A DNA stretch of 64,000 nt from NCBI RefSeq assembly GCF_000011005.1, contig NC_013665.1, positions 2,209,501 through 2,273,500 on the forward strand. The letters are read 5' to 3'. The translations under genes were made by a program, and so were the position numbers. Source of the stretch: Methanocella paludicola SANAE (GTDB lineage: Archaea > Halobacteriota > Methanocellia > Methanocellales > Methanocellaceae). How positions within the stretch are numbered: position 1 is the first letter of the stretch; each line of letters starts with the position of its first letter. Of the stretch, positions 23,820 through 33,928 are shown one piece after another. The notes below the pieces were generated by a model. The model made no database searches and was not told where the DNA came from. It was given only the letters and a program-made list of their open reading frames with translations.

Positions 23820-26489
23820 ATGACAGCGAAAAGGAAAAATAAGACCTCTTACGCTCCTCCATCCTCCATCAGCTACGCCACTCTGAGGCACACGGATGAG
23901 GAGATACTCAATCTTTTTAGGCCATCCGTCCGTAAGTGGTGGAAGGACAAGTTCGGCGGCCTCAAGGACGTCAATGGCGGCTACTTCACGCCTCCGCAGC
24001 GCCTGGCCATACCGCTCATCCACGAGGGCAGGAACGTCCTCATCTGCAGCCCGACGGGCTCCGGGAAGACATTATCGGCCTTTACGGCCATCATCAACGA
24101 GCTGTTCTTATTAGCTAACACTGAGGAGGGGCTGGAGAATAGCGTTTATTGCATTTACATCTCCCCGCTGAAGTCGCTGGCGAACGACATCCATAAAAAC
24201 TTAGAGGAGCCGCTCACCGCCATCAGCAAGGAGTATGGCGAGGAGATCCTCATACGCCATGCCATCCGGCATGGCGACACGGCCACCGATGAGCGGGCTT
24301 CGATGCTCCGGAAGACGCCGCACATCCTTAATACGACGCCAGAGACGTTAGCGATCCTTTTAAATTCGCCGAAGTTCGCCGAAAAGCTACGGACTGTGCG
24401 CTGGGTCATCGTGGACGAGATCCACTCCATGGCCGACACCAAGCGGGGCGTCTTCCTGTCCCTGGGCCTGGAAAGGCTCGAGGAGATCGTGAAGGCCCCG
24501 TTCATCCGCATCGGCTGTAGCGCCACCGTGGAGCCGCTCGACATGATCGCCCGGTTCCTGGGCGGCAACGTGGACGGCGTCGACCGCGAGGTCAGCATCG
24601 TCGATACGCGCTTCGTCCGCGATTACGAATTAAAACTCCTATGCCCGGTCCCGGACCTCATCAATGCCTCTTCTCAAGTGGTCAACCGAGAGCTCTACGA
24701 GATGATCCACGGCCTGGTGCAGGAACATCAAAATACGCTGGTCTTCACCAACACGAGAAGCGGGGCCGAGCGCATATTATACCACTTACGCAAGGCCTAT
24801 CCCGAGTTCTATAACGAAGAAAATACTGGCTGTCACCACGGCTCCCTGGGCAAGGATGGCCGCCTCGACATCGAAGAAAAGCTAAAAACGGGCAAGGTAA
24901 AGGTCGTCACATCCTCGACTTCGTTAGAATTAGGCATCGACATGCCTTACCTGGACATGGTCATCCAGGTGGGCTCGCCGAAGTCGGTGTCGGCACTGTT
25001 GCAGCGCATAGGCCGCGCGGGCCACAGGCTGGGCCAGACCGTCAAAGGCAGGGTCATAGCGCTGGACAGGGACGAGCTCATCGAGTGCGCCGTGATGCTG
25101 AAGAAGGCGCAGGACGGTTTCATCGACGGCGTCCACGTCCCCGAGAACTGCCTGGACGTTCTGACGCAGCACATCTTCGGCATGGCCATCAACGAGCCCA
25201 TGGACATCGAAAGGGTCAAAAAGATCATCCGGCGCTGCTACTGTTATCGTAATTTGACCGACCCGGACTTCATGAGCGTTATAGATTATCTTGCCGGCGC
25301 CCTCCCGGGCATGGAGGAGAAGAACATCTACGGCAAGATATGGTATGACCCGGAAACGAACAAGATCGGCCGCCGGGGCAAGCTTGCGCGGATGATCTAT
25401 TACACGAACATCGGTGTTATTCCCGATGAGTTTAAGTGTGACGTGATCACGAGGTCCGACCACGGATGGGTTGGAAGCCTCGACGAGCAGTACCTGGAAA
25501 AGCTCCAGAAGGGCGACGTGTTCGTCCTCGGGGGCAAGTTTTACGAATTCCTGTATCGCCGGGGCAGCAAGGTCTACGTCGACCCGTCGAGCAGCCGGCC
25601 CACAGTGCCTTCCTGGTTTTCTGAGAGGCTGCCACTGTCCTTCGACCTGGCGCTCCACCTCCTGGACTTCAAGGAGAACATGGCGAAGCGCACGGGGGAC
25701 CGCAGCACTTACAAGTGGCTGCTAGAAAATTATCCCATCGACGAGAACTCTGCGGCGAGCATCTACCAGATCTTCGACGAGCAGGTGCGCTACTCGAGAG
25801 CCGAGTCGATATCCACAAGGCACAGGTTCGTCATCGAGGAACACCTGGACAAGGAGCACTACCGGCGCTATTACTATTTCCACTCGCTCTACGGCAGGCC
25901 CTTCAACGACGGCCTGAGCCGCATCATGGCGTACATAGTATCCAGGGAGAGGACGAGCAACGTGACGCTCTCGGTGAGCGACCACGGGTTCTTCCTCTCG
26001 GTGCCGCTCTCGAAGAAGCTGGACATCGTGGAATACCTGACGTCGCTGGACGAGAGCCTGGCAAAGGAGCTGCTCCGGTATTCGCTGGAGGAAAGCCAGC
26101 TTCTCAAGCGCATGTTCCGCATCAACGCCACCCGCTCCCTCATGATACTGAGGAACTACAAGGGACACCAGAAGAGCGCGAGACGCCAGCAGGTATCGGC
26201 CGACATGATGCTATCCTATGCTCACAAGCTCGAGAACTTTTCAGTGCTCGAAGAGTCGTACCGGGAAATAATCGAGGACAAGCTCGAGATCGACCACATC
26301 CAGGATATCGTCCGTGGAATAAAGAGCGGCGAGATCGAGGTCGACCTCATCGGCGTAGAGTCGCCGAGCCCGCTCGCCTTCGGCATCGCCTCGCTGTCGG
26401 CGTCGGACGTGGTACTGGCCGAGGATAAGAACTCGCTCCTCAAAGAGTTCCACAAGCGAGTCCTGGCGAAGATAGGGAAAGCAAAATGA
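23820..26489 (+). CDS. lhr: ATP-dependent helicase Lhr (Lhr-core type)
   Basis: An 889-residue superfamily 2 helicase of the archaeal Lhr group, 3'-5' DNA/RNA unwinding implicated in replication-coupled repair. Walker A SPTGSGKT is at 77-84, DEIH at 199-202, SAT follows, and the second RecA domain has the QRIGRAGHR motif near 400. The winged-helix and the Lhr-specific domain occupy about 450-889. Its length agrees with Lhr-core. The stop overlaps the phosphoesterase start (ATGA), so the two are translationally coupled. Confidence 0.93.
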   Translation: MTAKRKNKTSYAPPSSISYATLRHTDEEILNLFRPSVRKWWKDKFGGLKDVNGGYFTPPQRLAIPLIHEGRNVLICSPTGSGKTLSAFTAIINELFLLANTEEGLENSVYCIYISPLKSLANDIHKNLEEPLTAISKEYGEEILIRHAIRHGDTATDERASMLRKTPHILNTTPETLAILLNSPKFAEKLRTVRWVIVDEIHSMADTKRGVFLSLGLERLEEIVKAPFIRIGCSATVEPLDMIARFLGGNVDGVDREVSIVDTRFVRDYELKLLCPVPDLINASSQVVNRELYEMIHGLVQEHQNTLVFTNTRSGAERILYHLRKAYPEFYNEENTGCHHGSLGKDGRLDIEEKLKTGKVKVVTSSTSLELGIDMPYLDMVIQVGSPKSVSALLQRIGRAGHRLGQTVKGRVIALDRDELIECAVMLKKAQDGFIDGVHVPENCLDVLTQHIFGMAINEPMDIERVKKIIRRCYCYRNLTDPDFMSVIDYLAGALPGMEEKNIYGKIWYDPETNKIGRRGKLARMIYYTNIGVIPDEFKCDVITRSDHGWVGSLDEQYLEKLQKGDVFVLGGKFYEFLYRRGSKVYVDPSSSRPTVPSWFSERLPLSFDLALHLLDFKENMAKRTGDRSTYKWLLENYPIDENSAASIYQIFDEQVRYSRAESISTRHRFVIEEHLDKEHYRRYYYFHSLYGRPFNDGLSRIMAYIVSRERTSNVTLSVSDHGFFLSVPLSKKLDIVEYLTSLDESLAKELLRYSLEESQLLKRMFRINATRSLMILRNYKGHQKSARRQQVSADMMLSYAHKLENFSVLEESYREIIEDKLEIDHIQDIVRGIKSGEIEVDLIGVESPSPLAFGIASLSASDVVLAEDKNSLLKEFHKRVLAKIGKAK

Positions 26490-27211
26490 AAGTCGACTAT
26501 TACCGGAACGCTGCCTATTTCCCCGATATCGGCACCTGCGCCTGTGCCGACATCCACATCGGCATCGAGGACGCCATCCAGGCGGAGGGCTTCGCGATGC
26601 CGCTGGAGGAAGAGCGTGAGCTTCTGGAGCGCTTCAGAGGCGTCATCAAAAAGTTCGAGCCAAAGACGCTCGTGCTGGACGGCGACGTGCTCCACGAGTT
26701 CGGCCGACTCCGGCGCAACACGAAGAAGTCCTTCGACCGCATCACCCTGGAACTTTTCTCATCGGTGGACGAAGTCGTCGTCCTCACGGGCTCCCACGAC
26801 AAGATGGTGGATACGGCCCTCGAAGGCACGGACATCGCCCCGGCCGACTTCTATTTCAAGGACGGCATTCTCTTCACGCATGGCGATTGCGTGCCGAAAA
26901 AGGCTAAAGAAAACGACGTAAAGCTCATCGTCATCGGCCACGACCACCCGACCCTGGACATCGAGCTAAAAAAAGAGCCCTGCTTCCTGTACGGCGAAAA
27001 AGTCTGGAACGGCAAAGACATCCTCGTCCTGCCGGCGTTTAATCCGTTATGCGCAGGGACCACCATCAACGGCATGGACTCCTGGGACTTCATGTCACCT
27101 TTTATACGAGAAAGCGATATAGGCCGGTTCAAGCCCGTCATCACGGCGGACGACGAAGTGCTGGAGTTCCCGGAGCTCAGGGAATTCCGGGATATTCTCA
27201 ATACATGGTAG
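26486..27211 (+). CDS. calcineurin-like metallophosphoesterase paired with Lhr
   Basis: A 241-residue phosphoesterase of the archaeal SbcD/PdeM-like group. Metal motifs are CADIHIG (about 15-21), LVLDGDVLHEFG (about 59-70), TGSHDKM near 100, THGDC near 131 and IGHDHP near 152. The third motif reads GSHD where the superfamily has GNHD, so a metal-bridging Asn is replaced by Ser. Bacterial relatives are encoded with an Lhr-like helicase and DNA ligase in repair clusters, and the four-base overlap with lhr suggests the same partnership here. Confidence 0.9.
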   Translation: MKVDYYRNAAYFPDIGTCACADIHIGIEDAIQAEGFAMPLEEERELLERFRGVIKKFEPKTLVLDGDVLHEFGRLRRNTKKSFDRITLELFSSVDEVVVLTGSHDKMVDTALEGTDIAPADFYFKDGILFTHGDCVPKKAKENDVKLIVIGHDHPTLDIELKKEPCFLYGEKVWNGKDILVLPAFNPLCAGTTINGMDSWDFMSPFIRESDIGRFKPVITADDEVLEFPELREFRDILNTW

Positions 27212-29510: not shown

Positions 29511-30185
29511 CTAATTTTCCTTGCGCCGGGAGACCATCCACGCCGCAACACACCCGGCGGCCAGCAGCGACAACACCTGCGGGATCACATAAGGCGTCGG
29601 CTGAGGGGTCGCGGTCGGAGGCAGCATAGTTCCCGTAGCGAGCGGCGTGGGCACAGGAGTACCAGCCGGCGTAACTACAGGCGAAGCCACAGGCGTCGAC
29701 ACGGGAGTCGCCACCGCGGTAGGCGTGGAAGTGACCGTTATTGGCGGCACACCACCGCCCGACGGGGAGCCGCCGGAAGCGTCGACGCCGAATGCCGCGG
29801 AGTAGCCATCGCCGTAAACGGGATGATATGCGTAGATCTTATACGGCGTGGGCCCGTTGGGGCCGACGTCTGAAGCGTTAGTGGCATTATAGGTCGCGTT
29901 CACGCCCAGGAACTGGTAGTAGCCATAGGCGTCGGACGTGGTGTTGAAGTACTCCTCGCTGACGTTCGAGGCGTTAACGATGGCGACATAAGCGTTGCCC
30001 ATGCCGGTGGCGTTTATCGCGGTCGTCACACGGCCCGTGACGGCGCCCGTCTTACCGTCCACTGCGGGCGGGCACTTCAGGCCAGTATAGGCTGGCTTAG
30101 CCGCCATAGCAGAGAAACCTGCCGCTAATATCAGGAGCACCATACACGAAACGATCATCGCTTTAATAATTCTATTCATATGCAT
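29511..30185 (-). CDS. secreted surface protein with Thr/Pro-rich stalk and C-terminal anchor
   Basis: About 224 residues. A signal peptide (IIKAMIVSCMVLLILAAGFSAMA) is followed by a beta-sandwich of the carboxypeptidase-regulatory type (GAVTGRVTTAINATGMGNAYVAI, then DAYGYYQFLG), many N-glycosylation sequons (NAT, NVS, NTT), a stalk of repeated TPxA/TPVP-like units (about 155-205), and a hydrophobic anchor ending in SRRKEN. This is the layout of cell-surface proteins fixed by a C-terminal span or an archaeosortase-like system. The start (30185 or 30179) follows two hairpins. Confidence 0.75.
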   Translation of the reverse strand: MHMNRIIKAMIVSCMVLLILAAGFSAMAAKPAYTGLKCPPAVDGKTGAVTGRVTTAINATGMGNAYVAIVNASNVSEEYFNTTSDAYGYYQFLGVNATYNATNASDVGPNGPTPYKIYAYHPVYGDGYSAAFGVDASGGSPSGGGVPPITVTSTPTAVATPVSTPVASPVVTPAGTPVPTPLATGTMLPPTATPQPTPYVIPQVLSLLAAGCVAAWMVSRRKEN

Positions 30186-30192
30186 ACGACCT

Positions 30193-30224
30193 GCCCCTTC
30201 GGGGCTAGTGTCCCCAAGGGACAC
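30193..30224 (-). promoter_or_regulatory. twin hairpins before the surface protein start
   Basis: Read on the minus strand, GTGTCCC-TTG-GGGACAC (30224-30208) and GCCCC-GAA-GGGGC (30205-30193) are two perfect stems with 3-base loops, only seven bases before the likely start. The second could hide the purine-rich ribosome binding site. Whether they act as RNA structures or protein sites is unknown. Confidence 0.5.
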
Positions 30225-30243
30225 CATAATCATGCTTTTATTC

Positions 30244-33237
30244 TTACTCTTTAATAAACGCTTTCCCGGATAGTACGCCCAGTATGAGGTCGCCGTATTT
30301 TTCAGCCTTGGCCTCGCCGATGCCGTAAACGCCCCGCAGCTCCCCCTTTGTCTTAGGCTTCTTCGCGATCAGGTCGTAGATGGTCTTGTCCTGGAAGATC
30401 GTGTACGGGGGCACCTTCATTTCCACGGCCTTCGCCCTCCGGGCGTCCCTCAGCGCCTTCTCCAGCGCACGGTCCTCTTCGGAAAAAACAGGTTCGCTGA
30501 CCTGAGGAGCGGCCCTGGCGGGCGCTGTCGCCATATCCGTAGTGCCAGCGTCGAACGGTGCCTGGAACATCCCGACGCTCGTGAACGATACGGAAAGCCT
30601 TTCGCCGTTGTTCTCGGCGCTGATCCTCATGCCGCTGCCCTCGTTGACCTGGATGATGTGCGCCCTGCCCATATAATTCCTCGGGTAGACGCCTTTATCG
30701 GCGTGCACTACGACCGAGGAGTCGGGCTTGATCAATACGACGACGCTGCCGTGGTAGGAGTCGCTGGTCCTTCCCGCGTACTCCACTCCGGCCTCGCCCG
30801 CGATGACATAATATTTTCCCGGTGTCAATTCGAATACCTCCTTTCGGACGTTTTTTGCCGTTTTTTCCGGTTCGGCCTTTACAGCAGGCCGTTCCAGCTT
30901 TATGGTCGTTTTCCATTCATCCGCAGGCAGCATCGTATCCACGTAATCTACCGTGATCTGGACTGGCATGTCATCGGTTATTTGGACTTCGAAGGGCAGG
31001 CTCCTCGAGCTGTCCCGGCCTAAGTATAAGCGCTCGCTCCTTACGCTCTGCCCGCCGGCCCTTATCGATATGGCCAGCTTACCATCCGCCCCTATATTGC
31101 GGACCGTGATGGAAGCGTTGACGGAGCCCGATGGGGCGCTGCCCGGGATACCGGACAGGTCCGCCTCGGCTTTGGGCACCTTACGGGCGGCCTCCACGAT
31201 ACTAATGGCAACGGGGGCGCGGATACCAAGCCGGATCAGGTCTTCGGGCTTCTTATCGGCGGCATCACGGAGAGAGCGTATGCCGCCATTAACGAGCAGC
31301 TCAAGGCTCCTCTCGCCCACGCCCTCGATGGACGCGAGCTCGACGGCCTCTTCTGGAATGCCCTTGTCGATCTGGAGCGAGACCATCTTCACTTTTCTGG
31401 AGAGCGTCTCGCCCGAGAACTCCTCGCAGAAGCGGGAGAACGCGCTCAAAAGGCGGGAGGCGTTCTGCTTGATGGCCCAGGCGTCCGACTTTAGCTCGTC
31501 GGGCAGAGTACGGCCGATGAGGCCGGCCAGGATGGCCCTGACCTTTGCCATTCCGCCGGGGCCCGCCTCGATGCCCAGCGCCTTTAGTGAGGACGCCTCG
31601 CCGGGCCTCGTGGCCACGTCGCTGAACTCGGTGGCCCTCGCGACGATATCAAGCACATCTTCCGTGCTTAGCGTGCCCTTCATGGCCTGCTCCCTGAATA
31701 ATAAGGCCGTCTCCAGCTTCAGGTAGAAGTCCGAGGTGATCGTTCCCAGGGGAGTGGGCGTGAGCACGCCCGAGCCCTCCCGGACGAAGCCGTTACGCAG
31801 AAGGTATTTGACCTTCGTGCCGGCGAGGGCTTCCACGTTCAGGCGGCCCTCCGACCGGACGTAATAGAAGGTTGTCTTTATCCAGTCGGCCGCGTCGGCG
31901 GCGCTCTTCACCATGCCCACGGCGATCTCGGCGTTCAGGTGCTCGGCCAGGCTGTGCTCCATCATGGACTCGATAGCTTTGCCGTTCTTCAGGAGCGCAC
32001 GGTATTCCGCGGCCCGGTCGTTTGGAACGATAACGTAGCCTTTGCCGAGCGTATCGTAGCCCGGCCGCCCGGCCCTGCCAAGCATCTGGAGCAGGTCGAT
32101 GGGGCTGATGTCCTTATTTCCCTGGATGGGGTCGTACATCTCGATGTCCCTTATGACCACTACCCTCGCCGGAAGGTTCACTCCCCAGGCCAGCGTGGAG
32201 GTCGAGACCAGGATACGTATTAGGCCTTCCCTAAATGCCGCCTCTACGAGGGCCTTGTCTTCCGCAGAAAGGCCCGCGTGGTGGAAGGCGATCGCGCAGG
32301 GCAGGCACGACTTAAGCTTCGAGCTAGAGGCCTTATTCCTTAGCTCCTGAAGCTTTATTGCCTCGAAGGGCTGAAGCATGTACGGATAGTTCTTACGTAC
32401 GATCTCGCACAGCTTCTCGGCCGCCTGCTGCGTGTCCTGGCGCGTCGAGACGAAGATCAGCGCCTGGTGGCCGTCGCCCAGCTCGCCCCTGATGAGGTCG
32501 AAGGCCTTGTAGAGCCGGACGTACTTGTTCAGGAAGTCGTTCGATTTCGGGTAGTAGGGGAGGACGTCCGTCTCGAGGTCGACGGGCCGGTAGGAGACGT
32601 CGAACTCGAGGACGTTCTCGGGAGGCGCTCCGATCCACCGTGCCACGTCCTTGATGTTGGGCATGGTGGCGCTCAATGCGACGGTCCTCAGCATTTTGTT
32701 ATATTGGGCGCTGATACGCCGCATGCGGCTGATCACGGCCTCCAGGGTGCCTCCCCTGCTGTCCGAATCCAGTAAGTGCACTTCGTCCACGATCACGAGC
32801 GCCACGTCCCGTACGAAGGAGTAGCGTTCCTGAAGGTATTTTCTCGTGGCGGAGTCCCACTTCTCGGGGGTCGTGATGATCACGTCGGCCGACCTGGCCT
32901 CGGACGGGTAGAGCTCCCGCTCGCCCGTGACCACGTAGACCTTGAACCCGAGCGTGGACAGCACTCGCTTCCACTCCGATTCCTTCTCGTTCGTCAAAGC
33001 CCTGAGCGGGGCGATGAAGAGGATCTTGCCCCTCTCCGCCTTGCCCAGCTCCCGGACCATGGCCGCCTCGGCCAGGACGGTCTTGCCGCTGGCCGTGGGG
33101 GCGGAGACGACGACGTTCCCGTCGGACCCAAGGATCACGGGCACTGCCTTCGACTGCATGCGGTTAAAGCTATTATAGGGGAAAATTTCCCTGAACCGTT
33201 CGTCAATGGTGCCCTCGACTGGGAGCTTTTCATTCAT
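30244..33237 (-). CDS. Ski2-type helicase fused to Sec63, NucS-like DNA-binding and HRDC domains
   Basis: A 997-residue superfamily 2 helicase. Walker A SAPTASGKT is at 45-53, DEVH at 151-154, SAT near 187, and MLGRAGRPGYD follows in RecA2. After the winged helix come a Sec63-like part with a helix-hairpin-helix (IEGVGERSLELLV) and a beta-sandwich (about 695-785). Residues 797-890 resemble the N-terminal DNA-binding domain of NucS/EndoMS (EYAGRTSD, VVLIKPDSSVVVHAD, then PRNYM). An HRDC domain ends the protein (about 919-997, PPYTIFQDKTIYDL). The NucS nuclease domain is absent. A role in DNA repair or replication-fork processing is inferred. Confidence 0.88.
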   Translation of the reverse strand: MNEKLPVEGTIDERFREIFPYNSFNRMQSKAVPVILGSDGNVVVSAPTASGKTVLAEAAMVRELGKAERGKILFIAPLRALTNEKESEWKRVLSTLGFKVYVVTGERELYPSEARSADVIITTPEKWDSATRKYLQERYSFVRDVALVIVDEVHLLDSDSRGGTLEAVISRMRRISAQYNKMLRTVALSATMPNIKDVARWIGAPPENVLEFDVSYRPVDLETDVLPYYPKSNDFLNKYVRLYKAFDLIRGELGDGHQALIFVSTRQDTQQAAEKLCEIVRKNYPYMLQPFEAIKLQELRNKASSSKLKSCLPCAIAFHHAGLSAEDKALVEAAFREGLIRILVSTSTLAWGVNLPARVVVIRDIEMYDPIQGNKDISPIDLLQMLGRAGRPGYDTLGKGYVIVPNDRAAEYRALLKNGKAIESMMEHSLAEHLNAEIAVGMVKSAADAADWIKTTFYYVRSEGRLNVEALAGTKVKYLLRNGFVREGSGVLTPTPLGTITSDFYLKLETALLFREQAMKGTLSTEDVLDIVARATEFSDVATRPGEASSLKALGIEAGPGGMAKVRAILAGLIGRTLPDELKSDAWAIKQNASRLLSAFSRFCEEFSGETLSRKVKMVSLQIDKGIPEEAVELASIEGVGERSLELLVNGGIRSLRDAADKKPEDLIRLGIRAPVAISIVEAARKVPKAEADLSGIPGSAPSGSVNASITVRNIGADGKLAISIRAGGQSVRSERLYLGRDSSRSLPFEVQITDDMPVQITVDYVDTMLPADEWKTTIKLERPAVKAEPEKTAKNVRKEVFELTPGKYYVIAGEAGVEYAGRTSDSYHGSVVVLIKPDSSVVVHADKGVYPRNYMGRAHIIQVNEGSGMRISAENNGERLSVSFTSVGMFQAPFDAGTTDMATAPARAAPQVSEPVFSEEDRALEKALRDARRAKAVEMKVPPYTIFQDKTIYDLIAKKPKTKGELRGVYGIGEAKAEKYGDLILGVLSGKAFIKE

Positions 33238-33355: not shown

Positions 33356-33928
33356 TCACGCCGCCAGGCCTTCGATGCGCTCGGCGATGAAGTCGGCGTA
33401 CGTCGGGATCTCCGGGACGTCCGTCATATTCTTATGGTGGATATACAGCCTGTTATCGCGCACGAGCTTCGACCGCTCCTGGACGATCTCGGTAGCGAAG
33501 TCATCCAGCTTCTGCCTGAACTCGTGGATGCAGTATATCATGAACTTTTCGAACTTCTCCTCGTCGTCGACGTGCTCCAGCATGCCGGGGTGCTTCTCGA
33601 CGGCGTCGAAGAACAGGGCCACGAACGAGTTATACTGGTCCTGGGACCGGAAGTGCATGCGCTTCTGCGTGGTGATGCCGCCGATCTCCTTTAGGAGGTT
33701 GATATCGCTGTCTTTCTTCAGCTTTTCCGCCTCGGCGCTGACCGTCCGGTACATCAGCTCGTGCACGACGGATGGCAGCTTGTATACGAGAAGCTCGCTG
33801 AGCAGCTTCGCCTCAGCGAACGCGTTCACGTCCTCCTTGATGAGGGTCTGGATGATGTAATCGGCGATGTGCTCGTAAATTGCCGGGCTCATGGGGCCGC
33901 CGTTGCTCTTGCTTGTGTCGGCTTTCAC
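33356..33928 (-). CDS. hypothetical helical protein
   Basis: A 190-residue soluble protein that I do not recognise. It appears all-helical, with charged segments (YRTVSAEAEKLKKDSD, DDEEKFEKFMIYCIHEF) and no signal peptide, membrane span or metal motif. The start is GTG 33928 with AGAGGT upstream; ATG 33892 is an alternative. It is a single-gene unit between the helicase and the FMN-binding protein, and all three are on the same strand. Confidence 0.7.
   Translation of the reverse strand: MKADTSKSNGGPMSPAIYEHIADYIIQTLIKEDVNAFAEAKLLSELLVYKLPSVVHELMYRTVSAEAEKLKKDSDINLLKEIGGITTQKRMHFRSQDQYNSFVALFFDAVEKHPGMLEHVDDEEKFEKFMIYCIHEFRQKLDDFATEIVQERSKLVRDNRLYIHHKNMTDVPEIPTYADFIAERIEGLAA

Follow-up and report, generated by a model that had tools for sequence, protein, structure and literature searches.

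A predicted single-cassette Brr2/ASCC3-type helicase of Methanocella that carries NucS-type N-terminal and RecQ-like HRDC domains

Described relatives of the motor and of its accessory domains

The closest solved relatives of the archaeal protein analyzed here are the helicases Brr2, ASCC3 and Slh1, which act largely on RNA or ribosomes. They share with it a full cassette composed of RecA1, RecA2, winged helix, helical bundle, HLH/HHH and FN3-like domains, but they possess two such cassettes, whereas the 997-aa archaeal protein has a single one, to which NucS_N and HRDC domains are added. Hel308 resembles it in the Ski2-like motor and the Sec63-like ratchet region, but has no Ig/FN3, NucS_N or HRDC domain. 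RecQ has a similar C-terminal HRDC domain, whereas the motor of the 997-aa protein is Ski2-like. The similarity to NucS/EndoMS comprises the fold of the N-terminal domain, the KPD...VH signature and most residues of the base pocket; the fusion differs from these nucleases in that it is devoid of the NucS_C domain, has Tyr at the position of Trp77, and shows no match to the canonical PIP-box (Q..[ILMV]..aromatic-aromatic, searched as a simple pattern). EndoMS works through a dimer of its N-domains, which flips two bases. To our knowledge, NucS_N is known solely as a DNA base-recognition domain, and it was regarded as essentially confined to NucS.

Two archaeal NucS_N proteins outside the NucS family have been noted as "annotated as topoisomerases" (Castaneda-Garcia et al. 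2017, PMC5290159); they probably represent the haloarchaeal NucS_N-zinc-ribbon proteins discussed below. The main text of that article mentions no helicase and reports no fusion, and we found no published account of a helicase-NucS_N fusion or gene pair in the open-access literature.

Domain composition of the 997-aa protein

The window, i.e. the whole analyzed stretch of 64,000 nucleotides, comes from a genome assembled as a single contig of 2,957,635 bases. At 30244-33237 on its minus strand lies an uninterrupted ORF of 997 aa, in which the domains follow each other in the order RecA1, RecA2, winged helix, Sec63 bundle, HHH, Ig/FN3-like, NucS_N, and HRDC (Table 1). Matches above the curated Pfam cut-offs were obtained for DEAD, Helicase_C, SNRNP200_wHTH, Sec63, NucS_N and HRDC.

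Table 1. Features of the helicase gene (positions are those of the window; residues are those of the 997-aa protein)
Feature	Position	Strand	Basis
Whole gene, predicted Brr2/ASCC3-type helicase + NucS_N + HRDC	30244..33237	-	997-aa ORF, intact helicase motifs
RecA1 / DEAD, residues 26-197	32647..33162	-	PF00270, 115.6 bits
RecA2 / Helicase_C, ~residues 230-405	32023..32550	-	PF00271, 48.9 bits (306-393); extent from AlphaFold model
SNRNP200-type winged helix, residues 423-473	31819..31971	-	PF23445 (SNRNP200_wHTH), 30 bits, cut-off 27
Sec63 helical bundle (ratchet), residues 494-613	31399..31758	-	PF02889, 59.7 bits
Helix-hairpin-helix (HHH_5), residues 633-686	31180..31341	-	PF14520, 24.5 bits, under cut-off 27
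Ig/FN3-like beta sandwich, ~residues 690-781	30895..31170	-	AlphaFold strands, pLDDT ~85-92
NucS/EndoMS N-terminal (base-recognition) domain, residues 809-895	30553..30813	-	PF21003, hhalign, Foldseek
HRDC, ~residues 920-990	30268..30480	-	PF00570, 71.3 bits (923-988)
Tyr820, equivalent to EndoMS Tyr41 (stacks on flipped base)	30778..30780	-	Alignment; role from PMC6829318
Arg823, equivalent to EndoMS Arg44 (DNA phosphate contact)	30769..30771	-	Alignment; role from PMC6829318
Asn854-Tyr855, equivalent to EndoMS Asn76-Trp77 (base hydrogen bond, stacking)	30673..30678	-	Alignment; role from PMC6829318

The helicase motifs are intact, with APTASGKT (Walker A) at residue 46, DEVH at 151, SAT at 189 and QMLGRAGR (motif VI) at 384, and the key motif residues are invariant among 33 relatives. 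Behind the RecA pair, Pfam, AlphaFold and Foldseek together reveal a complete Sec63 unit of winged helix, helical bundle, HLH/HHH and FN3, of which the Ig/FN3-like sandwich is the part that completes the Brr2 type. The full-length AlphaFold model (mean pLDDT 86) could be aligned with one Brr2 cassette over ~840 columns, and the best 50 matches in the fold comparison against the PDB were all Brr2. The family profile scored 414 and 429 bits against the two cassettes of ASCC3 vs 373 bits against the best Hel308, while the 997-aa sequence alone reached 288 bits to one ASCC3 cassette and 255 bits to Hel308 from A. fulgidus. The 997 residues hold one helicase cassette and no tandem pair. Judged by sequence and model, the protein is a single-cassette Ski2-like helicase of the Brr2/ASCC3 branch, and its motor is predicted to be an ATP-dependent 3'-5' translocase with a Sec63 ratchet. 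An assignment as a plain Hel308 is ruled out by the NCBIfam Hel308 score (235.7 bits vs the cut-off of 1200) and by the tree described below (100/100 branch); the host genome encodes a Hel308-like ORF of its own (740 aa).

The preliminary description of this gene placed a NucS-like N-domain at residues 797-890, between a Sec63-type helicase and an HRDC domain, and reported that the NucS nuclease was missing. The range was about right (the modelled domain spans ~809-895), the placement agrees with Pfam, and the NucS_C nuclease (PF01939) is indeed absent from the ORF according to Pfam. Both the profile comparison with the NucS family and the structure comparison that it advised came out positive. 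In the whole protein, PF21003 (NucS_N) covers residues 812-887 with 29.4 bits and E 7.8e-7 (cut-off 23.9 bits), and the isolated region alone matched NucS_N with E 2.2e-8 and the NCBIfam model of endonuclease NucS with E 5.4e-10. Against sequences of the PDB, the top matches of the isolated region were weak ones to P. abyssi NucS (E 0.004) and EndoMS (E 0.12); a NucS_N family profile, built from the fused, stand-alone and haloarchaeal copies, retrieved EndoMS with E 6.7e-11 and P. abyssi NucS with E 2.3e-10, the next match having E 0.03. An hhalign comparison with the N-domains of true NucS gave a probability of 99.4% (E 6e-22, 83 columns). The AlphaFold model of residues 690-997, for which the input alignment was devoid of any true NucS, has pLDDT ~76-93 over the NucS_N domain. 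Each of its best 5 Foldseek matches in the PDB is an EndoMS/NucS structure, with E values of 3.5e-6 to 2.9e-5 and prob 1.00; 5gke superposes with an rmsd of 2.4 A over 94 columns. RecQ HRDC structures come next. By sequence profile and predicted fold, residues ~809-895 thus qualify as a genuine NucS_N domain. An unrelated fold in this region is ruled out by the Foldseek, hhalign and profile-vs-PDB results. The preliminary description included neither the Ig/FN3-like domain (690-781) nor the strand, and two further features were not visible from its viewpoint, namely the Brr2/ASCC3 rather than Hel308 type of the motor and the haloarchaeal NucS_N neighbor gene.

The sole PF01939 match in the host genome is a separate two-domain NucS (C1:1449550-1450206). 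A role of the fusion as a stand-in for a lost NucS is ruled out, since a full NucS is present both in the host genome and in its 3 relatives.

According to a molecular-dynamics study of the EndoMS complex (PMC6829318), the mismatched base, once flipped, is stacked between Tyr41 and Trp77 and hydrogen-bonded by Asn76, and Arg44 holds the DNA phosphates. The 997-aa protein retains Tyr, Arg and Asn, with Tyr instead of Trp77, and every fused copy aligned exhibits Y, R/K, N and Y at these positions (Y, K, N, Y in the other Methanocella fusion; Y, R, N, Y in the 2 Methanoperedens fusions aligned). The preliminary description suggested that the helicase recognizes structures similar to those bound by NucS, which is plausible because the fused NucS_N keeps most of the base-pocket residues. 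EndoMS Arg72 and Glu73 are not kept in the 997-aa protein, and Arg72 is lost throughout the aligned copies, whether fused, stand-alone or haloarchaeal. The 2 stand-alone NucS_N-HRDC proteins described below have Y/F, R, C/G and Y, and one of 4 further Methanoperedens genomes (L231) has His at the Tyr41 position. In the haloarchaeal NucS_N the Trp is always kept, whereas Tyr, Arg and Asn are mostly lost, so the flipped-base pocket is not universal. One haloarchaeal genome (G029) encodes, besides the canonical NucS, a second, divergent NucS paralog with Ala in place of Asn76 (C1:679320-679934, L034).

The C-terminal HRDC domain is RecQ-like, as judged by sequence and by the model, which matched the HRDC domain of E. 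coli RecQ (1wud) in Foldseek with a TM (target) of 0.86. The protein as a whole is not a plain RecQ; the NCBIfam RecQ model scored 67 bits vs a cut-off of 640, with its best match on the HRDC part alone, and the motor is of the Ski2-like kind.

Fused and two-gene forms in Archaea and their phylogeny

A phyletic survey, also called for in the preliminary description, revealed a further copy of the fusion in Methanocella and, lacking HRDC, others in Methanoperedens. Another genome of the same family (G001) encodes a protein of the same architecture with 65% identity, while in two further members of the family (G002 and G003) we found no helicase ortholog at the threshold used. These two genomes encode stand-alone NucS_N-HRDC proteins of ~270-280 aa (L047:4880-5689 and L048:5213-6055), and the NucS_N-HRDC module may work without the helicase. 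The form without HRDC is present in Candidatus Methanoperedens nitroreducens (2 named records) and in 4 more sampled genomes of one genus, which presumably also belong to Methanoperedens because the sequence is near-identical. In a wetland lineage of Halobacteriota, known from fen and peat MAGs, the helicase is fused to a zinc-ribbon module and NucS_N is absent. Genes for XPB and DUF790/Bax1 directly adjoin this fusion (e.g. L052:7958-10856), and in 3 of the wetland loci (L152, L154, L159) endA lies divergent from the helicase. The helicase-zinc-ribbon fusion was also found in Asgard MAGs labelled Freyarchaeota and Sigynarchaeota; in a third Asgard MAG (Jordarchaeum) the sequence is truncated by the contig end.

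Haloarchaea possess a lone helicase and a separate gene encoding NucS_N and a zinc ribbon (PF21003, Zn_ribbon_Top1). In an even sample of 394 genomes of the phylum, the helicase is carried by 80 haloarchaeal-type genomes, a label that rests on named records sharing the arrangement (e.g. Halorubrum, Haloferax and Natronorubrum), and 79 of them also carry the NucS_N-zinc-ribbon partner. The two genes are separated by at most 200 bp in 15 pairs, at most 1.5 kb in 42, and at most 5 kb in 52 of the 79; the partner lies downstream on the same strand in 40/42 cases within 1.5 kb and in 50/52 within 5 kb. This adjacency persists across many haloarchaeal genera at variable distances; the co-occurrence is clade-bound and, taken alone, weaker evidence. 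In many haloarchaea the partner gene is followed by endA, encoding the tRNA-splicing endonuclease (L155-L227). Fusion in one lineage and adjacency in another argue, by the Rosetta-stone principle, for a joint function of the helicase and NucS_N.

In a tree of 37 helicases, this family together with the eukaryotic ASCC3/Slh1 is split from archaeal Hel308 (100/100). The two lineages with a NucS_N fusion cluster together in this tree (92/88), which makes a single fusion event possible, and in the tree of NucS_N domains all copies outside NucS group weakly (68/79). The N-terminal cassettes of eukaryotic ASCC3 and Slh1 cluster with the Asgard members L150, L151 and L153 (99/97); since the eukaryotic sequences sit on a long branch (2.9) and number only 2, with one cassette each, and Brr2 was left out of the tree, we treat this grouping as a lead only. 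With the caveat of long-branch effects, the Asgard members are a possible archaeal source of Brr2/ASCC3-type helicases, and a single-cassette archaeal relative bears on the origin of both Brr2 and ASCC3. Tentatively, we propose an uncharacterized base-sensing helicase system with HRDC and zinc-ribbon variants, near-universal as a two-gene form in haloarchaea and fused elsewhere, with a motor that is the archaeal sister of Brr2/ASCC3 through Asgard archaea. If true, a repair-type helicase would be older than the spliceosomal one.

Functional interpretation and genomic neighborhood

We lean towards the protein being a helicase-coupled sensor of damaged or unpaired bases that serves genome maintenance, with recognition linked to a motor and not to a nuclease. 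At stalled forks or recombination intermediates, the NucS_N pocket would capture a base that is mismatched, damaged or unpaired, or else an ssDNA end; HRDC would contribute affinity for ssDNA or junctions, and the motor would then unwind or clear the strand, leaving repair to other enzymes. A role on DNA is favored because the pocket residues are kept, HRDC is RecQ-like, and XPB-Bax1 genes occur in the neighborhood. Against a sensor count the loss of Arg72 and Glu73, the change of Trp77, the fact that EndoMS works as a dimer, and the poorly kept pocket of the haloarchaeal NucS_N. Kinship with Brr2 and Slh1 and the frequent endA neighbor keep an RNA role in play, in which the helicase would remodel tRNA, rRNA or stalled ribosomes as Brr2, Slh1 and ASCC3 do, while NucS_N and HRDC (or the zinc ribbons) would bind RNA. 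Its closest solved relatives by both profile and fold are the three helicases just named, endA adjoins the pair in 34 of the 54 named haloarchaeal loci whose fetched flank includes the partner, as well as the helicase in the 3 wetland loci, and HRDC is found in RNase D too (1yt3). We nevertheless regard RNA processing as unlikely, given the RecQ-like character of HRDC, the DNA base recognition that is the known role of NucS_N, and the XPB-Bax1 genes as another neighbor, and with no endA-like gene seen near the helicase in the window; ASCC3 itself serves DNA alkylation repair, according to PMC7608686.

NucS_N could alternatively act in docking, by homodimerizing the helicase or by pairing with genuine NucS and so bringing the helicase to NucS-cut breaks. 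The N-domains form the core of the NucS dimer (PMC8228993) and the same genome encodes a true NucS, yet retention of the base-pocket residues in the fused copies would be unexpected if docking alone mattered, and we consider this explanation improbable. An anti-phage function akin to Hachiman is highly improbable: PADLOC HamB models do score up to 165 bits on parts of the motor, but these matches are partial (~180 residues, against ~1,000 positions in the model), as is typical of related SF2 motors, the nearest genes upstream and downstream have no nuclease or defense-type Pfam match, and almost every haloarchaeal genome sampled carries the pair, as it would a housekeeping gene. Hachiman proper (HamAB) is ruled out, with neither a HamA-like neighbor nor a full-length HamB match.

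The association of NucS_N, as a fused domain or a neighboring gene, with one helicase family in several archaeal lineages suggests a helicase-coupled use of the base pocket. It also predicts a partner gene for the haloarchaeal helicase, for which we found no assigned role. The two-gene form is present in Haloferax, a genus with established genetics, so the idea is directly testable.

The preliminary description also suggested that a separate nuclease might cooperate with the helicase; we found none adjacent to the helicase gene within the window, and the suggestion stays conjecture. On the same strand as the helicase, 10 bases beyond its stop, begins a gene (29511-30233, reverse strand) whose product is predicted to be secreted and has a weak CarboxypepD_reg-like match. 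Further away, a gene read as a putative Lhr-type helicase (23820-27211, forward strand) overlaps by 4 bases with a downstream metallophosphoesterase-like gene. Just upstream of the helicase, on the same strand, lies a 190-aa orphan gene (33356-33928, reverse strand) with no match in Pfam or PADLOC, and an ORF resembling it is located upstream of the helicase in G001 as well (L051:9414-10022).
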